Under the pieces are notes generated by a model that worked only from the letters and a program-made list of their open reading frames with translations, searched no databases and was not told the origin of the DNA. Shown one piece after another: positions 9,852 through 55,986 of a stretch of DNA of 64,000 nucleotides. The position numbers were made by a program, and so were the translations under genes. This DNA comes from Spirochaeta thermophila DSM 6578. GTDB taxonomy: Bacteria; Spirochaetota; Spirochaetia; Winmispirales; Winmispiraceae. The stretch lies in the NCBI RefSeq assembly GCF_000184345.1, contig NC_017583.1, positions 682,001 through 746,000 of the forward strand, given 5' to 3'. How positions within the stretch are numbered: the first letter of the stretch is position 1; every line of letters begins with the position of its first letter.

Positions 9852-9941
9852 GCTTTACGAGATGTCCGCTCGTAATGAGAGATTCCTCATCCCCTCTCCG
9901 GAGAACGAAAGGGGGACTCGAGGATGGGCCGTGTTCCTGGT

Positions 9942-10340: not shown

Positions 10341-10385
10341 ATCCGGAGCCTCCTTGAGGAATGGTAAGGACTTCCTCCTCTTATG

Positions 10386-10413
10386 ATTATAAGAGATACC
10401 ATCCGATAATCAA
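10386..10413 (-). promoter_or_regulatory. promoter of the small exported protein gene
   Basis: On the minus strand TTGATT (10413-10408) and a perfect TATAAT (10391-10386) are 16 bp apart; the start codon is 45 bases downstream. Confidence 0.65.
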
Positions 10414-10469
10414 GCGGAATTCGAAAAAAGGGGGCGATTCCGGGCTGGAATACCATGGCCGTGTCGATC

Positions 10470-10475
10470 TATAGT
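10470..10475 (+). promoter_or_regulatory. candidate -10 box for the SDR gene
   Basis: TATAGT lies 31 bp before the SDR start codon. Only a weak -35 match (TGGAAT, 10446-10451) is present 18 bp upstream. Confidence 0.35.
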
Positions 10476-10506
10476 CTTGAGAAGACCATCGGCAGAGGAG
10501 GGAGAG

Positions 10507-15411: not shown

Positions 15412-15445
15412 CTTCCTTCCTTAGGTGGTGTATTCTCGTATTAAA

Positions 15446-16798: not shown

Positions 16799-16836
16799 AG
16801 TGGTCCATCCTTTCGATACGCTTTGTTATGGAAGGG

Positions 16837-16865
16837 AATATAGCAAAAAAAAGGCGATCTGGAAA
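16837..16865 (-). promoter_or_regulatory. candidate promoter of the tig-clpP-clpX-lon operon
   Basis: On the minus strand TTTCCA (16865-16860) and TATATT (16842-16837) are 17 bp apart. The -35 hexamer lies in the loop region of the tRNA terminator hairpin, so terminator and promoter overlap. Confidence 0.45.
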
Positions 16866-16878
16866 GGACCAGATCGCC
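16845..16878 (-). terminator. terminator of the tRNA-Leu/tRNA-Gly unit
   Basis: On the minus strand GGCGATCTGG and CCAGATCGCC form a perfect 10-bp stem with a 6-base loop, followed by eight T residues (16852-16845). Confidence 0.9.
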
Positions 16879-16879
16879 A

Positions 16880-16951
16880 AGCGGGAGACGGGACTTGAAC
16901 CCGCGACATCCACCTTGGCAAGGTGGAGCTCTACCACTGAGCTACTCCCGC
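16880..16951 (-). tRNA. tRNA-Gly (anticodon GCC)
   Basis: Full cloverleaf: acceptor GCGGGAG/CTCCCGC, anticodon loop TTGCCAA on a CCACC/GGTGG stem, T-arm GGGTTCAAGTCCC and discriminator T. CCA is not encoded. Followed after one base by the terminator hairpin. Confidence 0.97.
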
Positions 16952-16968
16952 ACTTGGAGTGGTGAACC

Positions 16969-17050
16969 TGCGAGAGAAGGGATTCGAACCCTTACACCCG
17001 AAGGCACTAGATCCTAAGTCTAGCGTGTCTACCAGTTCCACCACTCTCGC
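16969..17050 (-). tRNA. tRNA-Leu (anticodon TAG)
   Basis: Type II tRNA with a long variable arm (TGCCTTCGGGT region). Acceptor GCGAGAG/CTCTCGC, anticodon loop CTTAGGA on CTAGA/TCTAG, discriminator A. CCA is not encoded. Confidence 0.97.
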
Positions 17051-17065
17051 ACGTGTGCGAGGAGT

Positions 17066-17094
17066 ATAGTAGCGAAAAGCCCGGTATGTGTCAA
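17066..17094 (-). promoter_or_regulatory. promoter of tRNA-Leu/tRNA-Gly
   Basis: On the minus strand a perfect TTGACA (17094-17089) and TACTAT (17071-17066) are 17 bp apart, 15 bp before the tRNA-Leu 5' end. Confidence 0.7.
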
Positions 17095-17134
17095 GAGCTG
17101 CTGCCGAGAAGATGCGGGCAGGAGACAAAGAACA

Positions 17135-17152
17135 GGCCCCCTTTCGGGGGCC
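17135..17152 (-). terminator. terminator-like hairpin after tRNA-Lys
   Basis: GGCCCCC and GGGGGCC pair around a 4-base TTTC loop; on the minus strand it is followed by the T-rich TGTTCTTTGTC. It separates the His-Arg-Lys unit from the Leu-Gly unit. Confidence 0.65.
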
Positions 17153-17156
17153 CTCG

Positions 17157-17229
17157 TGAGCCGTGAAGGGATCGAACCTTCGACCCGCAGATTAAGAGTC
17201 TGCTGCTCTACCAGCTGAGCTAACGGCCC
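17157..17229 (-). tRNA. tRNA-Lys (anticodon CTT)
   Basis: Acceptor GGGCCGT/ACGGCTC with one G-T pair, anticodon loop CTCTTAA on GCAGA/TCTGC, T-arm GGTTCGATCC, discriminator A. CCA is not encoded. Confidence 0.96.
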
Positions 17230-17240
17230 ACAGTACTTCA

Positions 17241-17314
17241 CGCGCCTGGTAGGATTCGAACCTACGACCCACGGATTCGAAGTCCGGCACTCTATCCAGC
17301 TGAGCTACAGGCGC
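17241..17314 (-). tRNA. tRNA-Arg (anticodon TCG)
   Basis: Acceptor GCGCCTG/CAGGCGC, anticodon loop CTTCGAA, T-arm GTAGG-TTCGAAT-CCTAC, discriminator G. The first pair of the anticodon stem is a C-T mismatch; the rest pairs. CCA is not encoded. Confidence 0.95.
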
Positions 17315-17324
17315 ATGCTGGATG

Positions 17325-17397
17325 GGTGGATGACGGGACTTGAACCCGCGACACCCAGATCCACAGTCTGGTGTTCTACCACTGAACTACACCCACC
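17325..17397 (-). tRNA. tRNA-His (anticodon GTG)
   Basis: Acceptor GTGGGTG/CATCCAC with the extra G-1 facing discriminator C, the hallmark of tRNA-His. Anticodon loop CTGTGGA on CCAGA/TCTGG. CCA is not encoded. First gene of the His-Arg-Lys unit. Confidence 0.97.
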
Positions 17398-17459
17398 CTG
17401 TTTGCGGGTGTAAATGTGCAAAAATTCGGGTCGTTTGTCAAGTCCTACCGGCTGTCTCT

Positions 17460-17489
17460 ACGATACTATGGGAAGGCCGGCTCTGTCAA
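17460..17489 (-). promoter_or_regulatory. promoter of tRNA-His/Arg/Lys
   Basis: On the minus strand TTGACA (17489-17484) and TATCGT (17465-17460) are 18 bp apart. The -35 overlaps the stop codon region of the upstream rarA-type gene. A second TTGACA (17441-17436) has only a weak -10 17 bp on. Confidence 0.55.
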
Positions 17490-19711
17490 CCGGAGAGGCC
17501 TGCAAGAGAGAGCCTGAAGATCAGTATCGTGCGCCGCCAGGGTACTTCCCTGCCGGGGAGCGTCTCGAGGAGTTTCTGTCTGATGGTGGCCGCGAGAGCG
17601 GGTTCGAGGGAGGAGAGATGGAGCCCGTAGCCTTTGTGGGGATCACCCACCCATCTGAGGACATCCTCTCTGGTAAGGGTACGCCTGGTGGCGTACTCGT
17701 AGCGTTCCACCTGGGTGAGTGCGAGGCCGGCACGCCGGGCGAGTTCTGCGAGGGTCGCTTCGTCCCAGTTGACTCTGGGGTCCTCGGGATCGGCGAAGAG
17801 ACGCTCCTCCACCGAGGTGAGGGCCTCGCGAAGCGGGGTCTCGTCGCGTCGCCAGGGAACGAGGGAGGAAAGCCGCTGGGATGCGCGAAAGAAGGCTTCG
17901 GCGCACACGGCGATTCCTCCGGGTTCCAGGAGCGAGGCGAGGTCGGCGAGGATGCGCTCCTTGTCGGGTGAGGGGCCGAGGATGTTGCGCGCGAGGATGC
18001 GCTCGAAGGTGCGGTAACCGAGCCTCGCCTCGTCCACGAGAGAGACGAGGGGGGCGGTGCCTGTGATAAGGATCGGGGCGAGCAGGTCGTCGATGCCGGC
18101 TGCCTGGTGCCTGATGCGCTGGGCCTCCTCCTCCGAGGCGACGGCGCACACCACCTGTCCCTCCGGGGCCTGCCGGAGCGCCTCCCACACGAGGAATCCG
18201 GCCGGCCGTTCCGTCACGAGCACCCGGTGGTGCCGGACGATCTGTGCGCGTTGGAAGATCCTGTCCCTCAGCTCCTCGAGGTGAGGTTGGAGATCGGTCT
18301 CGGTCCTGCGCCACCATTCCCCCATCCCCTTTTCCGGGGTGAAGGTGAGGACCTCCTCTTCCACCTGGGCGGCCGCTGTGAGTTGGAGTTCCCGCCGTCG
18401 TAGCACCTCCTCCCTGATCCGGGCCTCGTATCCCTGCCGGCTGGGCTGGTAGAAGACGCGCCCTTTCAGCTCCGCGGGGAGGTAGTTCTGGGCCACCCAG
18501 TGCTCACGGTAGGAGTGAGGATAGAGATACCCGTCTCCGTGGCCGAAGCCCTTCGCGTCCCTGGATGCATCCTTGAGGTGGCGCGGCACCTCGTGGGTCT
18601 TCTCTTCTCGTACCGCCTTGAGGGCGTCGAAGTAACCGAGCACCGAGTTGCTCTTGGGGCAGGTGGCGAGGTAGAGCGCGGCGTGGGCCAGGTGATACTG
18701 CCCCTCAGGGAGCCCCACCCGGTCGAAGGCCTGGGCGCAGGAGAGGACCACGGTGATGGCGTGTGGGTCGGCCATGCCCACGTCTTCGCATGCGAGGATG
18801 AGCATGCGCCGAAAGATGTAGTGGGGATCCTCCCCTGCGTCCACCATGCGGGCGAGCCAGTAGAAGGCCGCATCGGGGTCGGAGCCGCGGAGCGACTTGA
18901 TGAAGGCGCTGATGATGTCGTAGTGGAAGTCCCCTTCCTTGTCGTAGAGCACGGCCTTGCGCTGGATGCTGTCTTCCGCCACCTCGCGGGTGATGTGGAT
19001 CACCTCTCCCTCAGGCGGGGGGAAGGTGTCCGGGGTGGTCTCCACCGCCAGCTCGATGGCCGAGAGCAGGGTCCGCGCGTCGCCGTCTGCCACGGTGATG
19101 AGGTGTTCCAGGGCATCCTCGTCCAGGATGATGCGGTACTTCCCGTAGCCCCGTTCAGGATCCGAGAGTGCGCGTTCGGCGATGGTCCTGAGGTGTTGGC
19201 GTGTGAGGGGTTTGAGTTGGAAGATCCTGCTCCGCGAGATGAGGGCCGAGTTGACTTCGAAGTAGGGGTTCTGGGTGGTCGCGCCGATGAGGATGACCGT
19301 GCCGTTTTCCACCCAGGGGAGGAGGGCGTCCTGCTGGGCCTTGTTCCATCTGTGGACCTCGTCCACGAAGAGGATGGTGCGCCGACCGTGGTAGGCCATT
19401 TCCTGTCTGGCCTTCTCTATGGCCGCCCGTACCTCCTGTACACCGCTCAAGACCGCATTGAGCGAGAGGAAGGCGCTCTTCGTGTGGTTGGCGATGACCC
19501 GGGCGAGGGTGGTCTTCCCGCATCCGGGCGGGCCGTAGAAGATGACCGAGGAGAGCCTGTCGGCCTGGATGGCCCGACGGAGGAGCCTCCCCGGACCGAG
19601 GATGTGCTCCTGTCCCACGAACTCGTCCAGGGTACGGGGACGCATGCGGGCGGCCAGCGGCTCGTCGTGCAGGGATTTCGCTGCTTCGAATAGATTGTCG
19701 GCCCTGTTCAC
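17486..19711 (-). CDS. RarA/MgsA-type AAA+ ATPase fused to a C-terminal methyltransferase-like domain
   Basis: A 741-residue two-part protein. Residues 1-about 430 match RarA (MgsA), the clamp-loader-like ATPase that acts at stalled forks: [16 protein letters not shown], Walker [12 protein letters not shown], Walker [17 protein letters not shown], sensor GATTQNP, and the C-terminal [10 protein letters not shown] and CPKSNSV segments. Residues about 450-741 are a second domain with a Rossmann/methyltransferase-like layout ([17 protein letters not shown], then [15 protein letters not shown]) but I see no clear SAM-binding glycine loop. Such a RarA/unknown-domain fusion is known from cyanobacteria and some other bacteria. 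GTG start at 19711 has no ribosome site; a TATCAT box lies 6 bases upstream. The function of the second half is unknown. Confidence 0.85.
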
Positions 19712-44058: not shown

Positions 44059-45528
44059 ATGAAACTCAGTCCCCATACCAGGATCGCCGAGATCCTTGCC
44101 GCACACCCCGACATGCCCGAGGCCCTCGCCTCTCTCGCTCCGGAGTTCAACCTGCTCAAGAACCCCATCGCCAGGGCCACGGTGGCAAAGGTCGCCACGG
44201 TGGAGAAGGCTGCCTCCATGGCAAAGATACAGGTTGAGGAGCTCCTCGACCGTATCGCCACGCTCCTTAAGGATCGAGGGGTGGAAGTCGAGCTCGAGAC
44301 GAAGCCCGCACGGGAGGAGCGTGTGCGCATCCTCAAAGACCTCATCATGGACCTGCACAGAGGAGCCCCCTTCGATGAGGTGAAACGCAGGTTCTCAGAA
44401 CTCGTGAAAGACGTGGATGCCCCCGAGATCGCCGAGATGGAACAACAGCTCATCGCAGAAGGCTTGCCCGTCGAAGAGGTGCAGCGCCTCTGCGACGTGC
44501 ACGTCCAGGTCTTCAAAGAGGCCCTGGAGGAGCGGGAACGCCCCTCTGTGCCTCCTGGTCACCCGGTCCACACCTTCATGGAGGAGAACTCGCACGCAGC
44601 CCAGCTCCTCGACCGGATCGATGCAGCCTTCCGCGATGGCCCGCAGTGGGATACCATCACCTCCCTGCTCGAGACGCTCTCTCAGATAGACCGCCACTAC
44701 CTTCGCAAGGAGAACCAGCTCTTCCCCCGCCTGGAGGAGCACGGCGTCTCCGGCCCCTCCCAGGTGATGTGGGCCCTTCACGACGAGATTCGTGCAGGGC
44801 TCAAGGAACTCGCCCGCCTCGCAGCCAGCCGGGATGCAGGGCGGTTTGAACCCCTCTTCAGGGAAGTGGCTACAGCCATAAGGGAGATGATCTACAAAGA
44901 GGAGCGCATCCTCTTTCCCCTTGCCCTGGAGACCCTCTCAGAGGAGGAGTGGCGAAAGGTGAGGGAAGGGGAGGAGGAAATAGGCTACGCGTGGGTGAGT
45001 CCCCCGCCTCCTTTTCCTGGCGCATCGAGAGGGCCGTCTCCATCGACCCGTACGACCTCTGCGCCCTCTGAAGGACTGCGTCCCGCAGGAGAACTCCCTT
45101 CCGTCCTCGCTACCTCGATACTCTTTCCCTTCAGTACGGGCGAGCTCACGGTGGAGCAGGCCGACCTGATCCTCAAGCACCTGCCTGTGGACATCTCCTT
45201 TGTGGACGAGCACGACAAGGTACGCTACTACACCGACACCCCCCACAGGATCTTCCCCCGCAGCCCCGGTGTCATAGGACGGGATGTGCGCAACTGCCAT
45301 CCTCCAAAGAGCGTGCACATCGTGGAGAAGATCCTCACTTCCTTCAAAGAGGGGAAGAAGGACGTGGCCGAGTTCTGGATCCAACTCCAGGGCAGGTTCA
45401 TCCACATCAGGTACTTCGCGGTGCGCGATGCCCTGGGGCGCTACAGAGGGTGCCTCGAAGTCTCTCAGGACGTGACCGATATCAGGAAGCTGGAGGGGGA
45501 AAAACGCCTCCTCGACTGGGAGGACTAG
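44059..45528 (+). CDS. DUF1858-DUF438-hemerythrin-PAS multidomain protein
   Basis: A 489-residue cytoplasmic protein with four parts: an N-terminal DUF1858 domain (residues 1-about 65, SPHTRIAEILAAHPDMPEAL), DUF438 (about 80-155, RVRILKDLIMDLHRGAPFDE), a hemerythrin HHE domain (about 165-300, with HTFMEENSH, HYLRKENQLFP, HDEI and KEERILFP supplying the His and Glu ligands for a di-iron site), and a C-terminal PAS domain (about 370-480, LPVDISFVDEHDKVRYYTD to GCLEVSQDVTDI) after a Pro/Ser-rich linker. Related proteins are thought to sense or handle oxygen, NO or damaged iron centres. ATG 44059 follows GAGGAGGAACAC. It likely responds with the upstream cupin to the palindrome at 43590. Its stop overlaps the convergent gene by four bases. 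Confidence 0.87.
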   Translation: MKLSPHTRIAEILAAHPDMPEALASLAPEFNLLKNPIARATVAKVATVEKAASMAKIQVEELLDRIATLLKDRGVEVELETKPAREERVRILKDLIMDLHRGAPFDEVKRRFSELVKDVDAPEIAEMEQQLIAEGLPVEEVQRLCDVHVQVFKEALEERERPSVPPGHPVHTFMEENSHAAQLLDRIDAAFRDGPQWDTITSLLETLSQIDRHYLRKENQLFPRLEEHGVSGPSQVMWALHDEIRAGLKELARLAASRDAGRFEPLFREVATAIREMIYKEERILFPLALETLSEEEWRKVREGEEEIGYAWVSPPPPFPGASRGPSPSTRTTSAPSEGLRPAGELPSVLATSILFPFSTGELTVEQADLILKHLPVDISFVDEHDKVRYYTDTPHRIFPRSPGVIGRDVRNCHPPKSVHIVEKILTSFKEGKKDVAEFWIQLQGRFIHIRYFAVRDALGRYRGCLEVSQDVTDIRKLEGEKRLLDWED

Positions 45529-46082
45529 ACCTGCCTGGTGGGGTGAAGGGACACCCGCAGCCGCCTGGTCCGTCCTCCCCCTCCGGCGTGGAGTCCGCCG
45601 TGTCCCGGGTGGGCCTGGCCGTGCCGGGCCTCGGGGTGCAGCACCGGTACTCCGAGACGGGCATCGCGCCTGCGGACGAGCCTCACCCCTCCTGGCACGA
45701 GGAGCCCGCACTCCACCGTGGCGAGCACCGGGTTGCCAGAGGGGAGCACGTGCCCGCCGGCGAGCTCTCCCGAGGCGAGGCAGACTGTCAGGTGGAGGTG
45801 GAGCTCCGGCTCTCCCCCCTCGTTCCGGCAGAGGAAGCCTCCCCCTCCTATGATCTCCACCGGCCCCTCATAGTCGATCGGATCGCTGAAGATGAGGTGA
45901 CCGGCTTCCCTTCCCACCGGGATCACCAGCCTGATCCGCTCGAGGCTCCCCAGGACAGGGCTTATGAGGGCCTCCCGCACGTGAGCGGCCGACGCAGCCT
46001 CTATGAGGGCGGGCACGAGGTCTTCCCCCGGCTCTGCCCTCACCACCAGGGCCTTGCGGATGAACGTTACCGCATGTTCCAT
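45525..46082 (-). CDS. PPC (DUF296) domain protein with a basic C-terminal tail
   Basis: A 185-residue protein. Residues 1-about 140 match the PPC/DUF296 domain found in bacterial PD1-like and plant AT-hook proteins: AEPGEDLVPALIEAAS, EIIGGGGFLCRNEGGEPELHLHL, and GELAGGHVLPSGNPVLATVE. The tail of about 45 residues is rich in Arg, His and Gly, which is not usual for the family and could be a DNA-binding addition or the result of a frame change near the end. ATG 46082 has AAGGGGGG upstream and a TATACT box at 46101-46106. It is transcribed away from the TRAP cluster. Function unknown. Confidence 0.75.
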   Translation of the reverse strand: MEHAVTFIRKALVVRAEPGEDLVPALIEAASAAHVREALISPVLGSLERIRLVIPVGREAGHLIFSDPIDYEGPVEIIGGGGFLCRNEGGEPELHLHLTVCLASGELAGGHVLPSGNPVLATVECGLLVPGGVRLVRRRDARLGVPVLHPEARHGQAHPGHGGLHAGGGGRTRRLRVSLHPTRQV

Positions 46083-46100
46083 ACGTCCCCCCTTACTGGA

Positions 46101-46106
46101 AGTATA
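46101..46106 (-). promoter_or_regulatory. -10 box of the PPC-domain gene
   Basis: TATACT on the minus strand, 18 bases before the start codon. A good -35 is not present. Confidence 0.4.
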
Positions 46107-46272
46107 GTAGGTATCGTGCGTTCCTGCACATCTTCGTGGGACGGAGCGTCTCCTTCCCCCAAAGTGATGGAGACACCCTCTGATGGAGGAGGGTGAAACC
46201 ATCCCACACTCTCTTCCGTGGCTCCTCGGAAGGTGGGTACCACCTCGAGGACACACCAGGCATATGTTTCCC

Positions 46273-46301
46273 TTGACATATGTTGTCTGACGTCATATAA
46301 T
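46273..46301 (+). promoter_or_regulatory. consensus promoter of the solute uptake cluster
   Basis: TTGACA (46273-46278) and TATAAT (46296-46301) with exactly 17 bp between: a full sigma-70 consensus. It lies 28 bases before the TRAP binding protein start. Confidence 0.88.
46278..46298 (+). promoter_or_regulatory. GntR-type operator in the promoter spacer
   Basis: ATATGTTGTC (46278-46287) and GACGTCATAT (46289-46298) match as complements at 8 of 10 positions around a central T. The core GTC-T-GAC is typical of FCD-type GntR sites. It fills the -35/-10 spacer, so binding would block the promoter. The FCD GntR gene at the end of the cluster is the likely regulator. Confidence 0.6.
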
Positions 46302-46329
46302 ATGGACATACCACACAAGGGAGGGGATC

Positions 46330-47322
46330 ATGAAACGACAGTCTATCCTCGTTCCTGTGCTGGTGCTTCTCATGAGCTGTGCGACCACTTCTCAGTCAGG
46401 GGAGGAACCTGCCCCTGCTTCCCATACGATCACCATCAAGGTGGTCAATGCCTTTGCCCCGCAGAACATCATGAGCCTCACGGCCGACAGGTTCAAAGAG
46501 GTACTCGAACGAGACGGTGGGGGGAGGTTCCTCGTCCAGATCCTCGATGTGGAGCGAACCGAAGAGAAGGCCAACGAGCTGTGCAGCTCCGGAGCGGCGC
46601 ATCTCCAGTTCACCGGTGGGTATCCGCTCCAGGTCTTCGCTCCCGAGTATTCCTTCTTCAACGCTCCCTATGTGATGAAGGACTTCGCCCACTTCACGCG
46701 GGTCTGGAACGGGCCTCTCGGGGATGCGGCCAGAAGGATGGTCGCGGAGAAGGGCAACATGCTCTGGATAGGGAACGTCTACCGCGGCTTCCGCCAGACC
46801 ACTGCGAACAAGCCCATCTATTCGGTTGAGGATGTCCAGGGGCTTCGACTCAGGCTTCCTGGCGTCCAGACGTGGGTCACGGTGTGGAAGGCCATGGGAG
46901 CCGATCCTGTGACCGTCCCACTCAGCGGGCTCTACGACTCCCTCAAGACGGGAAAGGCCGAGGCATCCGAGGGCGACATCCCTCAGATCCACAGCTACAA
47001 GCTCTACGAGGTCCAGAAGTACCTCATCATCACCAACCACCTGGTGCAGACAGGCGGCGTGCTCATCAACAAGCCCTTCTGCGAGTCGCTCTCCGAGGCC
47101 GACAGAAAGGCTGTGTGGGATGCGGCCGTCGAGGCCATTGAGTGGGCCACCAACAAGGTGATGAGCGAGGAGGGGATGCTCCTCGTGGATCTCCAGAAGA
47201 AGGGGATGCAGGTGATCATCCCCGATGCGGCCTCATTCAGGGAAAAGGGCAAGACTGCGGTGGAGGAGCTCTTCCGCACGCTCTGGTCGGTGACCACCTG
47301 GGAGGAGGTGCTCTCCCAGTGA
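46330..47322 (+). CDS. TRAP transporter solute-binding lipoprotein (DctP type)
   Basis: A 330-residue DctP-family substrate-binding protein. The signal peptide ends in the lipobox LLMSC (Cys17), so it is membrane-anchored outside the cytoplasmic membrane. The conserved segment with the carboxylate-binding Arg is GLRLRLPGVQTWVTVWKAMG, and the later PLSGLYDSLKTGKAEASEGD is family typical. No DctQ or DctM membrane subunit is present in the cluster, so it either pairs with a distant permease or works with the neighbouring TctAB. ATG 46330 follows AGGGAGGGGATC. It is the first gene after a consensus promoter. Confidence 0.9.
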   Translation: MKRQSILVPVLVLLMSCATTSQSGEEPAPASHTITIKVVNAFAPQNIMSLTADRFKEVLERDGGGRFLVQILDVERTEEKANELCSSGAAHLQFTGGYPLQVFAPEYSFFNAPYVMKDFAHFTRVWNGPLGDAARRMVAEKGNMLWIGNVYRGFRQTTANKPIYSVEDVQGLRLRLPGVQTWVTVWKAMGADPVTVPLSGLYDSLKTGKAEASEGDIPQIHSYKLYEVQKYLIITNHLVQTGGVLINKPFCESLSEADRKAVWDAAVEAIEWATNKVMSEEGMLLVDLQKKGMQVIIPDAASFREKGKTAVEELFRTLWSVTTWEEVLSQ

Positions 47323-47347
47323 ATGTCCATACCAAGGAGTAGAAGAG

Positions 47348-48463
47348 ATGACGACGTGGCATCCTGATGAGATCGCGGAAAAACTGCGACGGGTAAGAGC
47401 TCTCATGGAGGAAAAGGGACTTGAGGCCGTCTACCTCAAACGGCAGACGAACTTCTCCTGGATCACAGGGGGAGGTCGGAATGTAGTCGGGATCACCCTC
47501 GAACTCGGCGTGGCGGGAATCCTCGTGACCTCCACCCGGTGTTACGCGGTGTGCAACAACATCGAGTCCCCGCGGATGAGAGAGGAGGAGCGACTCGAGG
47601 AAAAGGGATTCGAGGTCCACGACTTCCTCTGGTACGAAGACAGGGAGGGCGAGATCGTGCGGAAGCTCTCCGGAGGGGGAAGACTGGGTGCCGATCATCC
47701 CTTCCCCGGTGCGGAGGACCTGTCGGCCGAGGTGAAGCGGCTGCGATATGCCCTCACCCCCTGGGAGGTGGAGCGCTACAGGGAGGTGGGCTACCTCACC
47801 TCCCTCGCGATCGAGGAGACCGCGAGGGAGGTGCGTCCGGGCGACAAGGAGTGCGCCGTCGTGGGGAGGCTCGCCCACAAGCTGTGGGCACATGGGCTCG
47901 ACTATGTGACCATCTTCGTGGCCGCCGACGAGAGGATCAGCGCCTACCGACACCCCATCTCCACAGAAAAAGAAGTGAAACAACGAGCCATGCTCTGTGT
48001 GAATGCTCGTAAATATGGACTCGTCGTGTCCCTTACCCGGTTTGTCAACTTCGGACCCATTCCTGAGGACTGGTACCGCCAGTACCTGGACAACGTGAGG
48101 ATCGACTGCACGTTCATGGCGGCGACGCGTCCTGGGGTCCCGGTAGTGGAAGCATTCAAACGAGGTATCGAGGCTTACAAGGCCCTGGGGTATCCAGACG
48201 AGTACAAGCTCCACCACCAGGGAGGAGCCATCGGCTATGAGGGGAGGGACTACAAGGTCACCTTCACCACCCAGGAGGTGGTACAGACGAATCAGGCCTT
48301 CACCTGGAATCCATCCATCACTGGGACCAAGAGTGAGGATACCATGGTGGCAACCACCGAGGGACCGCAGCTTCTCAGCAAACCGATACTGTTTCCCTCC
48401 ATCTCTCTGGAGGTGGATGGGATACGATTCGAGCGGCCGGGTGTACTTGAGATGCCCGGCTGA
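47348..48463 (+). CDS. M24-fold (creatinase/aminopeptidase-like) protein lacking metal ligands
   Basis: A 371-residue cytoplasmic protein with the creatinase N-terminal domain (residues 1-about 130, including NFSWITGGGRNVV) and a pita-bread M24 domain. At the five metal-ligand positions of M24 peptidases it has Asn (NARKYG), Ser (SLTR), Gly (GGAIGYEGRD, in place of the GHG-IG histidine) and Asn (WNP), with only the last Glu (EDTM) kept. The catalytic-type His of the HHQGG segment is present. It therefore cannot be a normal dinuclear metallopeptidase; creatinase, an M24 hydrolase that needs no metal, is a precedent. ATG 47348 has AAGGAG upstream. Its place among uptake genes suggests it acts on the imported compound. 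Confidence 0.8.
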   Translation: MTTWHPDEIAEKLRRVRALMEEKGLEAVYLKRQTNFSWITGGGRNVVGITLELGVAGILVTSTRCYAVCNNIESPRMREEERLEEKGFEVHDFLWYEDREGEIVRKLSGGGRLGADHPFPGAEDLSAEVKRLRYALTPWEVERYREVGYLTSLAIEETAREVRPGDKECAVVGRLAHKLWAHGLDYVTIFVAADERISAYRHPISTEKEVKQRAMLCVNARKYGLVVSLTRFVNFGPIPEDWYRQYLDNVRIDCTFMAATRPGVPVVEAFKRGIEAYKALGYPDEYKLHHQGGAIGYEGRDYKVTFTTQEVVQTNQAFTWNPSITGTKSEDTMVATTEGPQLLSKPILFPSISLEVDGIRFERPGVLEMPG

Positions 48464-48502
48464 GCGCCGTGAGGCGCACACTACATAACCAGGAGGCATG
48501 GT

Positions 48503-49480
48503 ATGAGATGGCGAGGTCTGACATTCATCCTGTTGTGCATGCTCGTCGGCGGTGTGCTCTGGGCTGAGGGACAGAAGGAAGAGGAGACGTATCCCTCTCG
48601 TCCCATTGAGATCATGGTGCCGTGGAGCGTGGGAGGCGCCACCGACGTGGTGTTCAGGACCTTCCAGATGGTACTCCCCAAGTACCTCCCGGTACCGGTC
48701 ATCATCGTGAACAGGCCGGGTGGGGGGGCCGTGCCCGGATACACCGAGGCACTCGGCAAGAAGCCCGACGGCTACTACTTCGTGGCATGGGCCACTCCTT
48801 CCATCACCAAGATCCACATGAGTAAGACCCCATACGATGTGGATTCCTTCGAACCGGTGATCAACCTGGTGAACGCACCGTGCTGGCTCCTCGTACCCGC
48901 GGATTCCCCTTATCAGAACCTCAAGGACTTCGTGGAGGATGCCAAGAAGCGGCCCGGGCAGATCAACGTGGCGAATGCAGGGGCGGGAGGCGGCACGCAC
49001 CTCATCATGCTCGCGTTCGAGCGGGCGGCGGGCATCAAGGTGAATCACGTCCCCCATGCGGGAGGTGGTCCGGCTGTCACCGCGGCGGTGGGTGGTCACG
49101 TCGATGCGGTGATCTGCAGCCCACCCGAGGGGGTTCCCCAGCTCCAGGGCGGGCAGCTCAGGTGCCTGGCGGTTTTCTCGGCCGAGAGGCTTCCCCAGTT
49201 CCCCGACTATCCGACCGCCCGTGAGCAGGGGATAGACTTCACCCTCGGACAGTGGCGGGGAGTGGCCGCCATAAAGGGTACCGATCCAGAGAAGATCAAG
49301 ATCATACACGATGCCTTCAAGGCCGCCATGGAGGATCCCGACTTCAAGGTGCTCGCGGAGAAGGCCGGAATCCTCACCGACTACAAGGGAACCGAGGAGT
49401 TCAAGAAGTTCGTCCTGGAACAGAGCGAGCTCTACAAGCAGATCATCATAGAGAACAAGCTGGGTGACAGGTATCAATGA
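48503..49480 (+). CDS. tctC: tripartite tricarboxylate transporter binding protein (TctC/Bug family)
   Basis: A 325-residue periplasmic binding protein of the Bug/TctC family. A signal peptide ([20 protein letters not shown]) is followed by [19 protein letters not shown], the typical start of the mature domain, and later [14 protein letters not shown] and the [20 protein letters not shown] motif around the carboxylate site. It has no lipobox. It delivers a carboxylate to TctAB in the inner membrane. ATG 48503 follows AGGAGG. A strong hairpin between it and tctB may raise its level over the membrane subunits. Confidence 0.93.
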
Positions 49481-49486
49481 CAGAGG

Positions 49487-49512
49487 AGTGCCGCCCCCGT
49501 GGGGGCGGCACT
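49487..49512 (+). terminator. strong intercistronic hairpin between tctC and tctB
   Basis: AGTGCCGCCCCC (49487-49498) and GGGGGCGGCACT (49501-49512) are exact complements, 12 bp with a 2-base spacer. No T-run follows, so it is more likely a partial terminator or an mRNA-stabilising element. Confidence 0.75.
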
Positions 49513-49562
49513 GCCTTATCGCTTCGATATATGTTATTTGTCTATAGAAAGGAACATGGCCT

Positions 49563-50012
49563 ATGATCGATGTGGTGTGGGGTGTCGTGGTCTTCCTGTT
49601 CGCAGTGGTCCTCGTAGCGGCGACGTTCGGATTTCCCGAGACCCAGATAGCCCTCTCGCCCGCGGTCTTTCCCAGGGTGATCGGGGGGGTCCTCATGGTC
49701 CTCTCCATCCTCCTCGCGGTGAGGGGAGGGCTGCAGCTCAGGACCGGAAAACCGGGGAAAGGCGCCTCGGATGAGCGGGCAGTATGGATGAGGCTCGTCC
49801 TCCTGGTGGTGGTTTCGGTCGGGTATGTCTTCTCCCTCGGGTTCCTTGGGTTCGTCGTCGCGGGTATCCCCTACATGGCGATGGTCTTCCTCATCTTCGG
49901 AGAGCGACGTCCGTTGATGGTGGGGCTCCTCTCATTCGGCATACCACTGGTGATCTACTCGGTCTTCAGGCTCGGGTTCCAGGTCCCCCTCCCACGGGGA
50001 ATTCTCTGGTGA
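49563..50012 (+). CDS. tctB: tripartite tricarboxylate transporter small membrane subunit
   Basis: A 149-residue inner membrane protein with four predicted helices (residues about 1-20, 38-55, 73-103, 110-140), as in TctB. The short segment ALSPAVFPRVIGGVL (P-x-x-FPR) is the typical TctB motif. It forms the membrane complex with TctA. The gap between tctC and tctB is 82 bases and contains the hairpin at 49487-49512. ATG 49563 has AAAGGAAC ten bases upstream. tctA follows 19 bases downstream. Confidence 0.88.
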   Translation: MIDVVWGVVVFLFAVVLVAATFGFPETQIALSPAVFPRVIGGVLMVLSILLAVRGGLQLRTGKPGKGASDERAVWMRLVLLVVVSVGYVFSLGFLGFVVAGIPYMAMVFLIFGERRPLMVGLLSFGIPLVIYSVFRLGFQVPLPRGILW

Positions 50013-50031
50013 ACGACGAGGAGTAAAGGAC

Positions 50032-51516
50032 ATGGACTTCGTGCAAGGAATGCTCTACGTATTCACGCCGCTTCACTTCGTCTATCTCTTCATCGGAGTA
50101 GCCGGCGGTATAGTGGTGGGTGCCCTCCCGGGTATCACCGGATCGGTGGGGATCATCCTCTTGCTCCCCTTCCTCTTCTACCTCGAACCTGCGAGCGCCC
50201 TCCTCATGCTCAGCGGGATGTTCTGTGGCGCCATCTATGGAGGTTCCATCCCTGCGATCCTCATCTCCACGCCGGGGACTCCTTCCTCCGCGGCCACGGT
50301 GCTCGACGGATACCCCATGGCGCAACGCGGGGAGGCCGGGAGGGCCCTGGGGATCGCCACCATCGCCTCGGCCACCGGTGGAATCGTCTCCACCCTCTGC
50401 ATGATCCTCATCGCTCCTCAGCTCGCGAGGGTGGCGCTCGCCTTCGGACCCGAGGAGTACTTCGCCCTCATGATATTCGCCCTCACCATCATCGCCTCGG
50501 TCTCCACCGGCATGATCCTGAAGGGCCTCATCTCCGGGTTCCTGGGGCTCCTCATCGCCTGCGTGGGGATAGATGAACTCACGGGCTATGCCCGGTTTTC
50601 ATTCGGGATACCACAACTCATGGCGGGCTTTCCGATGCTCGCCGTGCTCATAGGGCTCTTCGCCATATCGCAGGTCTTCATCGAGCTCAAGAACATAGGC
50701 AAGGAGCTTCCCCGGTATCATCAGAGGATAGAGCGGGTCATCCCTCCCCTCCGTGAACTGGCTCGGCTCATGAAGGTGATCATCCCCTTCTCGTTCCTCG
50801 GCACGTTCATAGGGATCATCCCCGGGACGGGGGGTACGATCGCCTCCTTCCTCGCCTACAACGAGGCCAGACGATTCTCGAAGGACCCGGATGGCTTCGG
50901 GAAAGGGGTCCCCGAAGGGATCGCGGCGCCGGAGGCGGCCAATAACGGCACCACAGGAGGGGCCATGGTGCCGCTCCTCACGCTGGGCGTTCCCGGCGAT
51001 GTGATCACCGCGGTGATGCTCGGCGCCCTCATCCTCATAGGCGTACGGCCCGGGCCGCTCCTCTTCAAAGAAGATCCGCAGCTCATCTCCTCGCTCTTCG
51101 TGGGGTTCTTCGTGGCCCAGTTGCTCATACTGCTGCTCGGCCTGGTGGGCGCCCGTCTTTTCCCCCTCATCCTCAGAATACGGGTGTCCCACCTTTTTCC
51201 CGTCATCCTCATGCTGTGCCTCGTGGGGGCCTTCTCCCTCAACAACAGCCTCTACGACGTGGGGGTGGCCCTGGCGTTCGGGGTGGTGGGCTACTTCATG
51301 AGGAAGGCGTCCTTCCCCGTGGCGCCCATGGTCCTCGGTGTGATCCTGGGCCCTCTCGCGGAGCGGGAGTTGGGCAAGGCCCTCATCATCTCCCACGGCG
51401 ACTGGAGTACCCTCGTGAGGTCTCCCATCGCGGTGGCCTTCTATGTGCTGGCGGTTCTCTCCATAGGGTATGCCCTGTGGAGGTCGAGAGGGCATGGTCA
51501 CACCTCTAGTCTTTGA
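50032..51516 (+). CDS. tctA: tripartite tricarboxylate transporter large membrane subunit
   Basis: A 494-residue inner membrane protein with 11-12 predicted helices. Family segments: GIVVGALPGITGSVGI near residue 25, GMFCGAIYGGSIPAILISTPGT near residue 65, and the internal repeat GTFIGIIPGTGGTIASF near residue 260, then EAANNGTTGGAMVPLLTLG. It is the transport channel of the TctCBA system, using an ion gradient. ATG 50032 follows GAGGAGTAAAGG. A small 7-bp hairpin (51500-51521) lies at its 3' end before the oxidoreductase gene. Confidence 0.93.
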   Translation: MDFVQGMLYVFTPLHFVYLFIGVAGGIVVGALPGITGSVGIILLLPFLFYLEPASALLMLSGMFCGAIYGGSIPAILISTPGTPSSAATVLDGYPMAQRGEAGRALGIATIASATGGIVSTLCMILIAPQLARVALAFGPEEYFALMIFALTIIASVSTGMILKGLISGFLGLLIACVGIDELTGYARFSFGIPQLMAGFPMLAVLIGLFAISQVFIELKNIGKELPRYHQRIERVIPPLRELARLMKVIIPFSFLGTFIGIIPGTGGTIASFLAYNEARRFSKDPDGFGKGVPEGIAAPEAANNGTTGGAMVPLLTLGVPGDVITAVMLGALILIGVRPGPLLFKEDPQLISSLFVGFFVAQLLILLLGLVGARLFPLILRIRVSHLFPVILMLCLVGAFSLNNSLYDVGVALAFGVVGYFMRKASFPVAPMVLGVILGPLAERELGKALIISHGDWSTLVRSPIAVAFYVLAVLSIGYALWRSRGHGHTSSL

Positions 51517-51565
51517 GGTGTATCTGAGTCTACCATGAGATCACTATGAGATCAGGGAGGATGTT

Positions 51566-52612
51566 ATGAGCCATGGGATAGGTATCGTGGGTACAGGAGG
51601 TATTGCGGACAAGCACGCACTCGCCGTAGGGCAGGTTGAGGGTGCAGAGCTCGTGGCGGTGATGAGTCGCTCGGAAGAGCGCGCGAAGGCGTTTGCCGAA
51701 CGGCATGGGTGCAGGGCGTACACCAGTATGTCGGAGTTCCTCGACGATCCTGAACTGGATATCGTTTCCATCTGTACTCCATCGGGGTACCACATGGAGC
51801 CGGCTCTCGAGGCCATAGCGGCAGGGAAACACCTGGTGGTGGAGAAGCCCCTCGAGATCACCTTGGAGCGATGCGACGCCATCATCGAAGCTGCGGCCCA
51901 AAAGGGAGTGAAGGTGATGGGGATCTTCCAGTCGCGGTTCTACGATGCCTCCAGGGTGCTCAAGGAGACGGTGGAGAAGGGCAGGTTCGGGAGGCTTGTG
52001 CTGGGGGATGCGTACGTGAAGTGGTACAGGTCCCAGGAGTACTACGACAGGGGTGAGTGGAAAGGGACGTGGCGCTTCGATGGGGGAGGGGCCCTCATGG
52101 TGCAGGCCATCCACGCGATCGACCTCCTGCAGTGGTACATGGGCAGAGTGGACACGGTGCAGGCCTACGCCAAGATACTCGGCCACGAGCGGATAGAGGT
52201 CGAAGACACGGCGGTGGCCACCCTCGAATTCGAGAACGGCGCCCTCGGGGTGATCGAGGGCTCCACCGCGGTGTATCCGGGTTTCCTCAAGCGGATCGAG
52301 ATCTCCGGGACCGAGGGATCGGCCATCATGGAGGAGGAGGATTTCAAGGCCTGGACGTTTGCGAAGGAGATCCCGGAGGACGAGGAGATCCGCCGGCGCT
52401 TCTCAGGCGCCACACGAACACAAGGCGGTGCCGCTGATCCAGGGGCGATCAGCCTCGAGGGGCATGTGCGTCAGTTCCAGGCCTTCGTGGATGCGCTGAG
52501 AGAGGGAAGAGAACCACCCGTGGATGGCTACGAGGCGCGCAAGGCGGTGGCGATCATCCTGGCGATCTACGAGAGCGCGAAGACCGGTCGGAAGGTGAAG
52601 GTGGACTACTGA
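51566..52612 (+). CDS. Gfo/Idh/MocA-family oxidoreductase
   Basis: A 348-residue NAD(P)-dependent dehydrogenase. The N-terminal Rossmann fold has GIVGTGGIADKHA, then ICTPSGYH, and the family motif EKPLEIT with the catalytic Lys; the C-terminal domain has GGGALMVQAIHAIDLLQW with the active-site Asp-His pair. These enzymes act on sugars, inositols and related hydroxy compounds. Its position after tctCBA and before a convergent GntR gene suggests it starts breakdown of the imported compound. ATG 51566 follows GGGAGGAT. The stop overlaps the GntR gene by seven bases. Confidence 0.92.
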   Translation: MSHGIGIVGTGGIADKHALAVGQVEGAELVAVMSRSEERAKAFAERHGCRAYTSMSEFLDDPELDIVSICTPSGYHMEPALEAIAAGKHLVVEKPLEITLERCDAIIEAAAQKGVKVMGIFQSRFYDASRVLKETVEKGRFGRLVLGDAYVKWYRSQEYYDRGEWKGTWRFDGGGALMVQAIHAIDLLQWYMGRVDTVQAYAKILGHERIEVEDTAVATLEFENGALGVIEGSTAVYPGFLKRIEISGTEGSAIMEEEDFKAWTFAKEIPEDEEIRRRFSGATRTQGGAADPGAISLEGHVRQFQAFVDALREGREPPVDGYEARKAVAIILAIYESAKTGRKVKVDY

Positions 52613-53343
52613 GTCTCCTCCCGACTGGGGAAAGCGTGGGGAATGGTCTTTGCCCACTGTTTCCTCTGGGTTCTCCTGTAGCTCTTCTCGAGGTGGTGTT
52701 TCATGGCCTGGCCGGCCTTTTCCCCGTGGCCCTCGCGGATGTGGGAGAGGATATCCCTGTGTTCCTCGAGGGCTTCTCTGTGTTCCTCGAGGGTGCGGGG
52801 TGCCTCCCCGTAGATCTTCCTGATCGCGTCGGTGATGAGGGGTACCAGGCGCATGATCACAGGGTTCCGGGTGGCCTCCGCGAGGCTCCGGTGAAACTCC
52901 ATCTCGGGCACGAGACCGATTTGACCGTCACGGATCTCTTGCTCCATCCGGGCGAGGATATCCTCAATGTGGGCGATGTCTTCAGGCGTACGCCGTTCCG
53001 CGGCGAGTTTTGCCACCGGCGGTTCCACGATGAGCCTCACCTCGATGAGGGCGAGCTGGAGGTTCTCGTCCATGAGGAACTCGAGCCCCAAGGGATCCTC
53101 CTGGAGCCCGGGGGTCCGGGAGACGTAGGTGCCCTTCCCCCGGACGATCTCTATGATGTTTTGTGAGACGAGGGTCTTTATCGCCTCCCTGATGGTGGGG
53201 CGGCTCACGCCGAAGAGCTGTGCGAGCTCGATCTCGTTGGGAAGCTTTTCTCCAGGGTTGAGTTTCTTCCGGCGGATGAGGTCTTTGATATGATCCGCAA
53301 TCTCCCGTGAGAGGTGGGTCTTCCCGTTCACCCGTCTGTACAT
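52606..53343 (-). CDS. GntR-family regulator with FCD domain, likely controller of the uptake cluster
   Basis: A 245-residue FadR-type GntR protein. The winged helix is in residues about 8-75 (LSREIADHIKDLIRRKKLNPGEKL; GVSRPTIREAIKTLVSQNIIE; RGKGTYVS). The FCD domain has ALIEVRLIVEPPVAKLAAER and the metal or ligand histidines in EFHRSLAEATRNP and HREALEEHRDILSHIREG, ending MKHHLEKSY. ATG 53343 has GGAGGATGC upstream and a promoter TTGATC-17-TACCAT. It most likely binds the GTC-T-GAC dyad in the promoter at 46273-46301. Convergent with the oxidoreductase gene. Confidence 0.92.
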   Translation of the reverse strand: MYRRVNGKTHLSREIADHIKDLIRRKKLNPGEKLPNEIELAQLFGVSRPTIREAIKTLVSQNIIEIVRGKGTYVSRTPGLQEDPLGLEFLMDENLQLALIEVRLIVEPPVAKLAAERRTPEDIAHIEDILARMEQEIRDGQIGLVPEMEFHRSLAEATRNPVIMRLVPLITDAIRKIYGEAPRTLEEHREALEEHRDILSHIREGHGEKAGQAMKHHLEKSYRRTQRKQWAKTIPHAFPSREETQ

Positions 53344-53483: not shown

Positions 53484-54440
53484 ATGAACCGTCGTCTGTT
53501 CGGTCTTCTTTTCATCGCCGTGCTCTTGCTCGCCGGATGCGAACGTGGAAAGGAGAGCGGAGCCGATGACCGTTCCACCGTGAGGGTGGCGGTCTCGCTC
53601 TTCCCCTACTACGACCTCGCACGCCGCGTAGGAGGCGATGCGGTCGAGGTCCACCTCCTCCTCCCCTGGGGCGCGAGCCCTCATGGGTACGAGCCCACGC
53701 CTCGTGACATACAGGTGGTGCAGTCTGCGCAGTATGTGATCTACACCAGCGATGAGCTCGAGCCGTGGATGGGGAGGCTCACCCGAGGGCTTCCCGATGA
53801 GGTGAAGGTGCTCACCCTGGAAGATGTCGCAGGCAGGGGGCTCCATCCCCATGAGGAGGAACATGCGGGGGAGGATGATCACGAAGCCTCGGAAGGCAAC
53901 CACCATGCCCCCCACCTGTGGCTCGATCCTCTGACCCTCGCGGCCCTTGCCCGTGCCTATGCCGAGGAGCTTGTGCAGGCCGTGCCCGATCGCGAGGAGG
54001 AGATAAGGTCCCGGCTCTCGGCCTACCTCGAGGGCCTGGAGGTCCTCGATCGGAGGATGGAGGAGCTGGTGGATGCTGCGCCTCGAAGAACGGTGGTCTT
54101 CGCCGGCCACAGGATGCTCGACGCATGGGCCGCACGGTACGGGGTGCAGGTGATCTATCCCTTCGAGAGCGCCTCCCCTTCGGCCGAGGTCCTCCCCCGC
54201 CAGGTGAGAGAGGTGCTCGGACACGTTCTTGAAGAAGAGGATGCTCCCGGCGTACTCTACGAAGCGGTCTCAGAGGTGAGGCTCGGCGGGTTCCTCGAGG
54301 CCGAGGGTATCGCGGTGTATCCTTTCTACGGGCTGCACACCCTCCCCAAGGAGATGGCCGATGAGGGATATGGGTACGTGGAGGTGTGGGAGATGAATCT
54401 CGCTTCTCTCAGGAAGGTGCTGTATGGCGCCACTGATTGA
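53484..54440 (+). CDS. znuA: zinc/manganese ABC transporter binding lipoprotein
   Basis: A 318-residue cluster A-I metal-binding protein (ZnuA/TroA/AdcA type). The lipobox is LLAGC with Cys19. Metal-binding histidines are seen in WGASPHGYEPTPRD, HLWLDP and FAGHRMLDAW. Between the first two lies a loop rich in His, Glu and Asp (residues about 118-145: LHPHEEEH, then GNHHAPH), which favours zinc over manganese. It hands metal to ZnuB/ZnuC. ATG 53484 follows GGAAGGGAT. The stop lies inside znuC (17-base overlap). Regulation through the palindrome at 53443-53462 is likely. Confidence 0.93.
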   Translation: MNRRLFGLLFIAVLLLAGCERGKESGADDRSTVRVAVSLFPYYDLARRVGGDAVEVHLLLPWGASPHGYEPTPRDIQVVQSAQYVIYTSDELEPWMGRLTRGLPDEVKVLTLEDVAGRGLHPHEEEHAGEDDHEASEGNHHAPHLWLDPLTLAALARAYAEELVQAVPDREEEIRSRLSAYLEGLEVLDRRMEELVDAAPRRTVVFAGHRMLDAWAARYGVQVIYPFESASPSAEVLPRQVREVLGHVLEEEDAPGVLYEAVSEVRLGGFLEAEGIAVYPFYGLHTLPKEMADEGYGYVEVWEMNLASLRKVLYGATD

Positions 54441-55122
54441 GGTGAGGGGCCTTGCCGCGGGCTACGGCACGCAGGAGGTCCTCACCGACGTGTCCTTTTC
54501 GGTGGAGGAGGGGGAATTCCTGGTCATCCTGGGCCCCAACGGATCGGGGAAGACCACCCTCGTCCGCACCCTCCTGGGGTTCGTCCGCCCGATGCGAGGG
54601 GATGTGCGGTTCGGGACGAAGGGCCTCCGCATAGGCTACGTGCCCCAGGAGGTGGACACCCGTGCGCAGTTCCCGGCCACCGTGGAGGAAGTGGTGTGTT
54701 CCGGCCTCTATACGCGCAGACTGCCGCGACCCGAAGCACGTCGGCGCGTGGATGAGTTGCTCGGCCTCCTGGGGATACGTGATCTGAGGCGGAAGAGACT
54801 CGATGCGCTTTCCGGCGGCCAGAGACAGCGGACCCTCCTCGCCCGTGCCTTGGTGGCCGATCCGGACCTCCTCGTGCTCGACGAGCCGACCGGTGCCCTC
54901 GATCCGAGGACGAGGGAGTGCTTCTACCTCACGCTGAGCGACATCAAGGGGCGCCACCCCGTCACGGTGATCATGGTCACCCACGACGTCACCGGTGTGC
55001 TCCCCTATGTGCAGAAGGTCCTCCTCCTCGACAGGAGGGTCCAGTTCTTCGGCACGCCCGAGGAGTTTGCGAACCAGGCCGCACGGCACTACTTCTCGCA
55101 CGGGGAGGTCGCCTGTGACTAG
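54424..55122 (+). CDS. znuC: zinc/manganese ABC transporter ATPase
   Basis: A 232-residue ABC ATPase with Walker A GPNGSGKTTL near residue 37, the Q-loop in IGYVPQEVD, signature LSGGQRQRTLLARAL, Walker B LLVLDEPTGALD and the switch His in MVTHDV. It powers the ZnuAB system. ATG 54424 lies in the end of znuA, with AAGGTG upstream. znuB follows 42 bases after the stop. The combination of the cluster A-I binding protein and the ABC-3 permease identifies the system as a divalent metal importer. Confidence 0.94.
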   Translation: MAPLIEVRGLAAGYGTQEVLTDVSFSVEEGEFLVILGPNGSGKTTLVRTLLGFVRPMRGDVRFGTKGLRIGYVPQEVDTRAQFPATVEEVVCSGLYTRRLPRPEARRRVDELLGLLGIRDLRRKRLDALSGGQRQRTLLARALVADPDLLVLDEPTGALDPRTRECFYLTLSDIKGRHPVTVIMVTHDVTGVLPYVQKVLLLDRRVQFFGTPEEFANQAARHYFSHGEVACD

Positions 55123-55164
55123 GTGTATTATGATACGCCGGTACGTCACCTCGAGGGTGCTGCC

Positions 55165-55986
55165 ATGATCGATCTCCTCTCCCTCGGTTTCGTGCAGAGG
55201 GCCTTTCTCACAGGCCTCGCCTTGAGCCTTCCGGCCTCGCTTCTGGGGATGTTCCTCATCCTCCGTCGGTTCTCCATGGTGGGCGACGGTCTCGCGCACG
55301 TGAGTTTCGCCACCGTGGCCCTGGGTCTCCTCGTGGGCACGCAACCCTTCCTCCTCTCCCTCCCTCTGGTGATCGCCGCCTCGCTCCTTCTTCTCTTCCT
55401 CGTGGAGCGGCGGGGGGCGTACGGGGATGCCGCAGTGGGCATGATCTCAGGTGCTGCGGTGGCCCTGGGTGTGGTGCTCGCGAGCGTGGCGGGCGGATTC
55501 AACGTGGACCTCTTCGCCTACCTCTTCGGGAGCATCCTCACCGTGACGTGGGGGGAGGTGTGGACGAGCCTCCTCTGGGCCGGGGTCGTGGTCGCGGGGA
55601 TCGTGGTGTGGTATCGCCCCCTCTTCATGGTGACATACGACCCCGAGTTCGCGCAGGTCCAGGGTCTCCGGGTGCGACGGTACGAGCGGGCCCTCATGGT
55701 GGCCACCGCAGTCACCGTGGTGTTGGGGATCCGGCTCGTGGGGGTGCTCCTCATCTCGAGCCTCATCGTGTTTCCTGCGAGCTGCGCCTTCCTCCTCCGG
55801 AAGGGGTTTGCTGTCACCCTCACCGTCACGGCCCTCGTCGGAGTGGCAGGCGTGGTCATCGGCATGACCGCCTCCCTCGCCTGGAACCTCCCCACGGGCC
55901 CGGCCATCGTCCTCGCCTACGCCCTCGTCTTCCTGCTCCTTGCCCTTATCCCCCTCCTCCACCGGGCGGTGCGCTCCCGGTCGTGA
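55165..55986 (+). CDS. znuB: zinc/manganese ABC transporter permease (ABC-3 family)
   Basis: A 273-residue ABC-3 permease with eight or nine hydrophobic helices. The segment RRFSMVGDGLAHVSFATVALG with the conserved GDGLAH motif is near residue 35, and GVLLISSLIVFPASCAF is the typical late helix. ATG 55165 is preferred, with GAGGG upstream; a TTA-like start in the same frame further up has no support. The last gene of znuACB, it is followed by the malic enzyme gene 63 bases later with no clear terminator. Confidence 0.92.
   Translation: MIDLLSLGFVQRAFLTGLALSLPASLLGMFLILRRFSMVGDGLAHVSFATVALGLLVGTQPFLLSLPLVIAASLLLLFLVERRGAYGDAAVGMISGAAVALGVVLASVAGGFNVDLFAYLFGSILTVTWGEVWTSLLWAGVVVAGIVVWYRPLFMVTYDPEFAQVQGLRVRRYERALMVATAVTVVLGIRLVGVLLISSLIVFPASCAFLLRKGFAVTLTVTALVGVAGVVIGMTASLAWNLPTGPAIVLAYALVFLLLALIPLLHRAVRSRS

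Follow-up and report, generated by a model that had tools for sequence, protein, structure and literature searches.

We examined a 64 kb window (bases 682001-746000) of the single-contig genome of Spirochaeta thermophila DSM 6578 (2,560,222 bases), which contains a seven-gene cluster with solute receptors of two transporter families. The genes follow the order dctP, an M24-like gene, tctC, tctB, tctA and a gene for a Gfo/Idh/MocA oxidoreductase, and end with an opposing gene for a GntR regulator of the FCD type. All are open frames at or near the places where an earlier note on this DNA had located this hybrid cluster, and all reach the Pfam cut-offs (Table 1). The cluster thus includes TctA, TctB and TctC, the full subunit set of a tripartite tricarboxylate transporter (TTT), together with DctP, a receptor of the tripartite ATP-independent periplasmic (TRAP) type. 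Position 46273, from which the cluster had been counted, is the first base of a sigma-70-type promoter. The sequence shows one conserved unit. It also shows that dctP stands first behind the promoter, that the same type of operator precedes M24 and dctP in other species, and that the M24-like protein has lost its metal site.

Table 1 Features of the cluster (positions in the window)
Feature	Position	Strand	Evidence
Sigma-70-type promoter	46273..46301	+	TTGACA, 17-bp spacer, TATAAT; 12/12 consensus bases
Operator-like palindrome inside promoter, probable GntR site	46278..46298	+	Site type recurs before M24 or dctP in relatives; GntR binding presumed
dctP, orphan TRAP-type receptor	46330..47322	+	Pfam DctP E 1.1e-49; lipobox-like LLMSC near N-terminus
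M24-like, metal-less pita-bread protein	47348..48463	+	Peptidase_M24 30.9 bits (cut-off 23), Creatinase_N 27.1 (cut-off 22)
tctC, TTT receptor	48503..49480	+	Pfam TctC E 5.4e-56; nearest PDB chain 4x9t
GC-rich hairpin between tctC and tctB	49488..49511	+	Perfect 10-bp stem, 4-base loop, without T-run
tctB, small TTT membrane subunit	49563..50012	+	Pfam TctB E 7e-21
tctA, large TTT membrane subunit	50032..51516	+	Pfam TctA E 1.3e-153; sole TctA of genome
Gfo/Idh/MocA oxidoreductase	51566..52612	+	Pfam, Rossmann and C-terminal domains
FCD-type GntR regulator	52606..53343	-	Pfam GntR helix-turn-helix and FCD; adjoins unit in relatives too

The M24-TctCBA unit is conserved across Spirochaetota, in Rhodospirillales and in one Desulfobulbaceae bacterium, and Gfo and GntR genes often accompany it. 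M24-like relatives were gathered by a pattern scan (10 loci) and by whole-genome searches, which matched 17 of 98 relatives at E 1e-3, 26 of 392 Spirochaetota genomes at E 1e-50, one of 347 genomes in the order of a Xanthobacteraceae genome, and four of 297 in the order of the L027 genome. The genome searches were a quick first pass that scored few candidates per genome, so that absences are soft. The resulting table holds 41 loci; L027, where M24 is cut by a contig end, and the duplicate contigs L019, L022 and L026 were left out. Of the 32 loci in which M24 is at least 43% identical, 29 have TctA within 8 kb and 28 have TctC; 15 contain a Gfo of 50% identity or higher, and 11 contain a GntR of 45% or higher. 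TctA is missing from L021, L023 and L103; a distant TctA (42%) farther off in L021 was not counted. Where the M24 identity is below 42%, TctA is found in none of the nine loci. In a tree of 57 M24 proteins (L041 and L028 were left out here as well), the TTT-linked members fall into one clade of 30 rows with support 99/96, of which 28 are linked, and the linkage label changes three times, compared with a mean of 19.3 in shuffles. The gene order recurs in other species, so the cluster is not a chance assembly. Within the 30-row clade, the alphaproteobacterial and Desulfobulbaceae rows fall inside the spirochaete branches, an arrangement suggesting that the unit has been transferred from phylum to phylum. 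An apparent TctA-Gfo fusion in Rhodospirillales was rejected as an artefact of stop-to-stop reading. In L023, an MtaA/CmuA-like methyltransferase gene and a nicotinate phosphoribosyltransferase gene (8655-13280) lie downstream of the M24 relative without a TTT.

The DctP of the cluster is an orphan, as the earlier note had claimed when it assigned membrane subunits to the TTT only. The genome encodes six DctP and five DctM proteins; the other five dctP genes lie 615-1612 bp from a same-strand DctM gene, whereas this one is 256,864 bp from the nearest, and each of the five DctM is paired with another DctP. A search that matched 12 of 27 genomes at E 1e-40 yielded orthologues with 44-52% identity in G029, G065, G091, G497 and G098, after which identity drops to 36%. 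These five and the DctPs of this genome and its congener form a clade of seven (support 98/96) that excludes the five other DctPs of this genome and five further ones compared. The latter five have DctQ or DctM neighbors; for L058, DctQ was confirmed and DctM was not confirmed by comparison. The clade members share a loss of two residues at the place where canonical DctP has a GG stretch, the spirochaete members have lipobox-like N-termini, and R175 is invariant, at a position that we take to be that of the carboxylate-binding arginine of SiaP, R147. A carboxylate-binding role of the SiaP arginine is described in the accessible part of PMC4646407. Compared with the SiaP type, this DctP thus retains the domain and the ligand-site arginine position, and differs in its separate clade, the shortened GG stretch and the missing DctQM partner. 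An AlphaFold2 model of DctP (7 rows, pLDDT 68, a score of model confidence) was too poor and was not used.

All seven genomes that carry this DctP have the M24 protein with a TTT. At E 1e-50, the cluster-type DctP is present in four of the 392 Spirochaetota, all among the 26 with M24; the probability of this overlap by chance is 1e-3 counted by genus and 1.5e-5 counted by genome, the latter being too small because the genomes are related. In the class of the L026 genome, this DctP occurs in one of 337 genomes, and that genome is also the sole M24 carrier among the 347 of its order. The operon opens with dctP both here and in the congeneric genome, and the gene is intact, with 96% identity between the two genomes. 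The Xanthobacteraceae locus L059 has the order dctP, M24, tctC, tctB, tctA with a different TTT (TctA 40% and TctC 48% identical, versus 56% for M24 and 48% for DctP). In G029, G065, G091 and G497, dctP is located elsewhere in the genome than the M24 unit, in G497 as a solitary gene.

The promoter ahead of dctP contains a 21-bp palindrome, ATATGTTGTCTGACGTCATAT (46278-46298), that spans the last base of the -35 element to the first three bases of the -10 element and is the sole match in the 64 kb at up to three mismatches (0.05 expected). Operator-like sites scoring above 15 precede M24 in 13 of the 32 relatives at 43% identity or more, a count obtained with a matrix trained partly on sites later scored and set against a random-window control that contains true sites, and precede gntR in four loci (L018, L033, L034, L095). 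A held-out matrix was built to avoid this circularity for dctP and family f28; it comprises 10 M24-upstream sites from outside this genus and f28 and was used to scan seven loci (136,557 bp). Exactly seven places score above 12. Three of them lie upstream of M24, in f28 genomes, and the other four upstream of dctP; the next best place scores 11.7. The dctP sites are those of this window and of L152, L175 and L176, unlinked dctP genes of three other spirochaete genomes, in each of which a promoter, TTGACA-17-TAGAAT or TACAAT, overlies the site. By the same matrix, the best site in the five other DctP loci of the genome scores at most 10.2, and no operator-like site precedes dctP in L177, L059, L058, L178 or L179. 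The orphan gene is thus tied to the M24-TTT unit, in two lineages by its position and in a third by its control region. The FCD-GntR protein is the probable repressor of the unit and would bind at 46278-46298.

A pattern scan of the whole genome returned the dctP site and one other place, 2296928 (L153), which we took as a chance match. Other operator-like matches outside this unit are found in L150 and L151; in L151, the site lies upstream of an NAD-epimerase gene (6862-7875) of a family that also adjoins M24 in L021 and L023, and this gene may be another member of the regulon. In L096, the M24-TTT unit is adjoined by genes for a chemoreceptor with a sugar-type binding domain, a short-chain dehydrogenase/reductase (SDR) and a DctPQM-like set (11819-17897); close to where the dctP of this set begins, there is a second operator-like site.

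The M24-like protein was modelled by AlphaFold2 with high confidence (pLDDT 94.9) as a pita-bread fold, which matches Xaa-Pro peptidases (Z 33.6), creatinase (7yto, Z 32.7) and EutD (6yo9, Z 32.4) equally well and the dimethylsulfoniopropionate (DMSP) lyase DddP slightly less (Z 31.0). The positions that we take to be the metal ligands of prolidase (D, D, H, E, E) align with N219, S228, G293, Q316 and E330; only E330 is kept, in agreement with the earlier description of the protein as metal-less. The position of the histidine ligand is an invariant glycine, G293. Across a 63-row alignment that contains duplicates, W38, G42, R76, W95, E168, R196, H202, G224, R231, G292, G293, G326, K328 and E330 are invariant where covered, with exceptions at R196 and similar positions only where a row is cut. 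We take this invariance to mean that the proteins form an active family and are not decayed peptidases. Xaa-Pro peptidases and prolidases (M24B) share the fold and a distant similarity (1wy2, E 4e-22 by profile), but four of the five metal ligands are replaced throughout the M24-like family, which is annotated as peptidase and is probably misnamed. In the xylose operons of Thermus plasmids L114, L122 and L124, a gene named M24 peptidase or aminopeptidase P belongs to the metal-less family, and its name is probably wrong.

The wider M24-like family, at about 29-33% identity, is found on plasmids in a carbohydrate context. From 37 plasmid records with a relative, we examined 18 (11/11 haloarchaeal, 3/3 from Nostoc, Gloeothece and Deinococcus, 3/11 Thermus, 1/12 Pantoea), and carbohydrate genes flank the M24-like gene in 17 of these loci. 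The Thermus plasmids carry xylF-xylA-xylB operons in which the M24-like gene adjoins a Gfo gene; 10 of the 11 haloarchaeal loci, some of them near copies, contain arabinofuranosidase genes; the Deinococcus locus encodes a fucose isomerase, and Nostoc and Gloeothece are weaker sugar cases. The consulted part of a paper on haloarchaeal pentose metabolism (PMC3102087) does not mention M24. On spirochaete chromosomes, the M24-like gene has neighbors encoding GH4, PfkB, transaldolase, a fucose-isomerase-like protein, or SIS and glucosamine-isomerase proteins, and dehydrogenases of the Gfo, SDR, GMC and zinc alcohol dehydrogenase types recur beside it. The nearest DctPs with named neighbors adjoin mannonate dehydratase and 3-oxo-tetronate kinase (OtnK), and the dctP orthologue of G065 adjoins a gene of the 2-keto-3-deoxygalactonokinase family (DGOK) and genes of the dihydrodipicolinate synthase (DHDPS) family. 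For the Gfo/Idh/MocA protein of the cluster, the nearest NCBIfam models are inositol and sugar dehydrogenases, every match being below cut-off.

A carboxylate cargo is suggested by the TTT and by the conserved DctP arginine, and a sugar by the family context. Transporters of the TTT type have been described for galactarate and glucarate and for alginate products (in the accessible parts of PMC5812351 and PMC13390454, respectively). On these grounds, we favor a uronate, aldonate or aldarate as the substrate.

It seems fairly probable that the unit is a GntR(FCD)-controlled system with two receptors that takes up a sugar-derived acid and begins its catabolism. Under this scheme, the repressor GntR would leave the operator once its ligand is present; TctC and the lipoprotein-like DctP, both extracytoplasmic, would capture the same or related sugar acids, DctP acting as a dedicated second receptor of the regulon; and TctBA would be the import route. 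The Gfo/Idh/MocA enzyme would then oxidize the sugar acid, and the M24-like protein would act on the oxidation product without a metal, most simply by hydrolysis of a sugar lactone. For this protein, we can offer no simpler chemistry than that of a putative lactonase acting after a sugar dehydrogenase. The conserved linkage and the place of the orphan dctP in the same regulon sustain the proposal of the earlier note, which saw here a unit dedicated to uptake and catabolism, under regulation and served by receptors from two families.

Several observations weigh against this scheme. M24, TctCBA, Gfo and GntR are linked in relatives, so that for these families the objection foreseen in the earlier note, a lack of joint conservation, falls away. 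The dctP gene, in contrast, is unlinked to M24 in most relatives, and its linkage to the unit is confined to the two congeneric genomes and a single genome of Xanthobacteraceae. At E 1e-50, DctP is absent from 22 of the 26 M24-bearing Spirochaetota genomes; the dctP genes of G497 and L059 lack the operator, and no operator-like site precedes gntR within the window. Furthermore, in G065 and G091, dctP and a complete DctPQM operon are arranged tail to tail, and the second objection foreseen in the earlier note, a pairing of this DctP with DctQM for another substrate, may still apply. With respect to the sugar context, one locus, L115, is devoid of sugar genes, the alignable portion of the Gfo that adjoins M24 in Thermus is limited to the Rossmann part (120 residues, 33%), and the cluster encodes no sugar-acid enzyme except Gfo; both substrate and reaction are what we infer from such context.

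The permease partner of DctP is a separate question. TctBA is favored as the partner that would receive its ligand, across families, because each DctM has its own DctP, the DctM of G065 and G091 has no orthologue here, and a TTT is present in all carriers; nevertheless, TctC is present and evidently sufficient in most relatives, and we regard such delivery as doubtful. Equally tentative, and unlikely to hold in full, is the joint proposition that the DctP-TctBA pairing is kept in unrelated bacteria and that the M24-like proteins are metal-free pita-bread enzymes of sugar catabolism, perhaps lactonases. Alternatively, DctP could be an extra receptor for one of the five resident TRAP permeases (DctQM), with the TTT using TctC alone. 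This is a real possibility that we nonetheless do not expect. In its favor, DctP belongs to the TRAP receptor family, the tail-to-tail arrangement in two genomes makes a TRAP partner possible, and, according to the accessible part of a 2018 review (PMC5812351), interactions of DctP with the membrane subunits are specific, not promiscuous, even within the family, which would make a cross-family pair surprising. The same specificity, however, speaks against borrowing of a permease already paired with another DctP; the best match of the G065/G091 DctM in this genome is only 39% identical; no DctM is recognized near dctP in L059 or L177; and no transporter other than the TTT was found alongside DctP in all seven carriers.

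It is less likely that DctP serves as a lipoprotein for sensing or scavenging and passes its ligand to a chemoreceptor or sensor instead of a permease. Apart from the lipobox-like N-termini, the lack of an obvious permease partner would fit such a role, as would the chemoreceptor with a binding domain beside M24 in L096 and the hybrid histidine kinase gene after tctA in L059, but the L096 chemoreceptor has a binding domain of its own, and the S. thermophila cluster contains neither a chemoreceptor nor a hybrid kinase gene. It is improbable that dctP is left over from a TRAP system that has been displaced, and stands before the operon by chance: although a replacement of TRAP by TTT is imaginable from L037, where the M24 relative adjoins DctP, DctQ and a DctM-cluster gene, the near-identity of the intact congeneric DctPs, the supported clade in unrelated genomes and the same promoter-operator arrangement where dctP is unlinked all argue otherwise. 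Creatinase and EutD cleave C-N bonds, and creatinase works without a metal. The proposal of the earlier note, in which a guanidino or amide acid is taken up and a creatinase-like enzyme cleaves its C-N bond, has the shared pita-bread fold in its favor, but it is very improbable and lacks support, given that metallopeptidases match equally well (Z 33), the protein is 13-14% identical to creatinase and to EutD/DoeA ectoine hydrolase in structural alignment, the neighbors of the wider family are sugar genes with none recognized for guanidino or ectoine catabolism in the examined loci, and the nearest DctPs with named neighbors stand beside sugar-acid genes.

The unit as preferred here, a regulated sugar-acid system with two receptors, resembles other TctCBA systems in its three subunits, single operon and one TctA, and differs from them by a TRAP-type receptor behind the same promoter and by the M24-like protein. 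The galactarate/glucarate TctABC of Halomonas and the alginate TTT of Vibrio would share a carboxylated-sugar cargo with it, and the Vibrio locus includes GntR genes; the accessible descriptions of these systems mention no second receptor family, and the Vibrio locus has known catabolic enzymes. The earlier remark that the pathway was not a recognized one holds for the open-licence literature, in which we found no matching published pathway, no DctP-TctBA pairing and no link of the M24-like family to TTT or sugar operons; the consulted part of PMC9602780 names S. thermophila solely on account of a receptor set rich in sugar receptors. Receptors of other transporter types have been suggested as possible partners of TctA where TctC is missing (PMC5812351, in the part available), and the regulon offers a concrete co-regulated case to test this idea. 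If it is true, two transporter families held to be separate may work together. The M24-like proteins, in turn, make up a family that is defined by sequence and bears a peptidase annotation; it recurs in operons for pentoses and other sugars, in bacteria as well as in haloarchaea.

Within the cluster, the hairpin between tctC and tctB is, from its sequence, a possible processing or attenuation element and could raise tctC mRNA over tctBA. Divergent from dctP, there is a gene with a PCC/DUF296-type domain (45528-46187, minus strand); of the loci compared, the congeneric genome alone also has it beside the unit. Directly behind the unit, positions 53484-55986 contain zinc/manganese-type ABC uptake genes, for a ZnuA-like binding protein recognized by Pfam and for an ATPase and a permease identified by frame reading.

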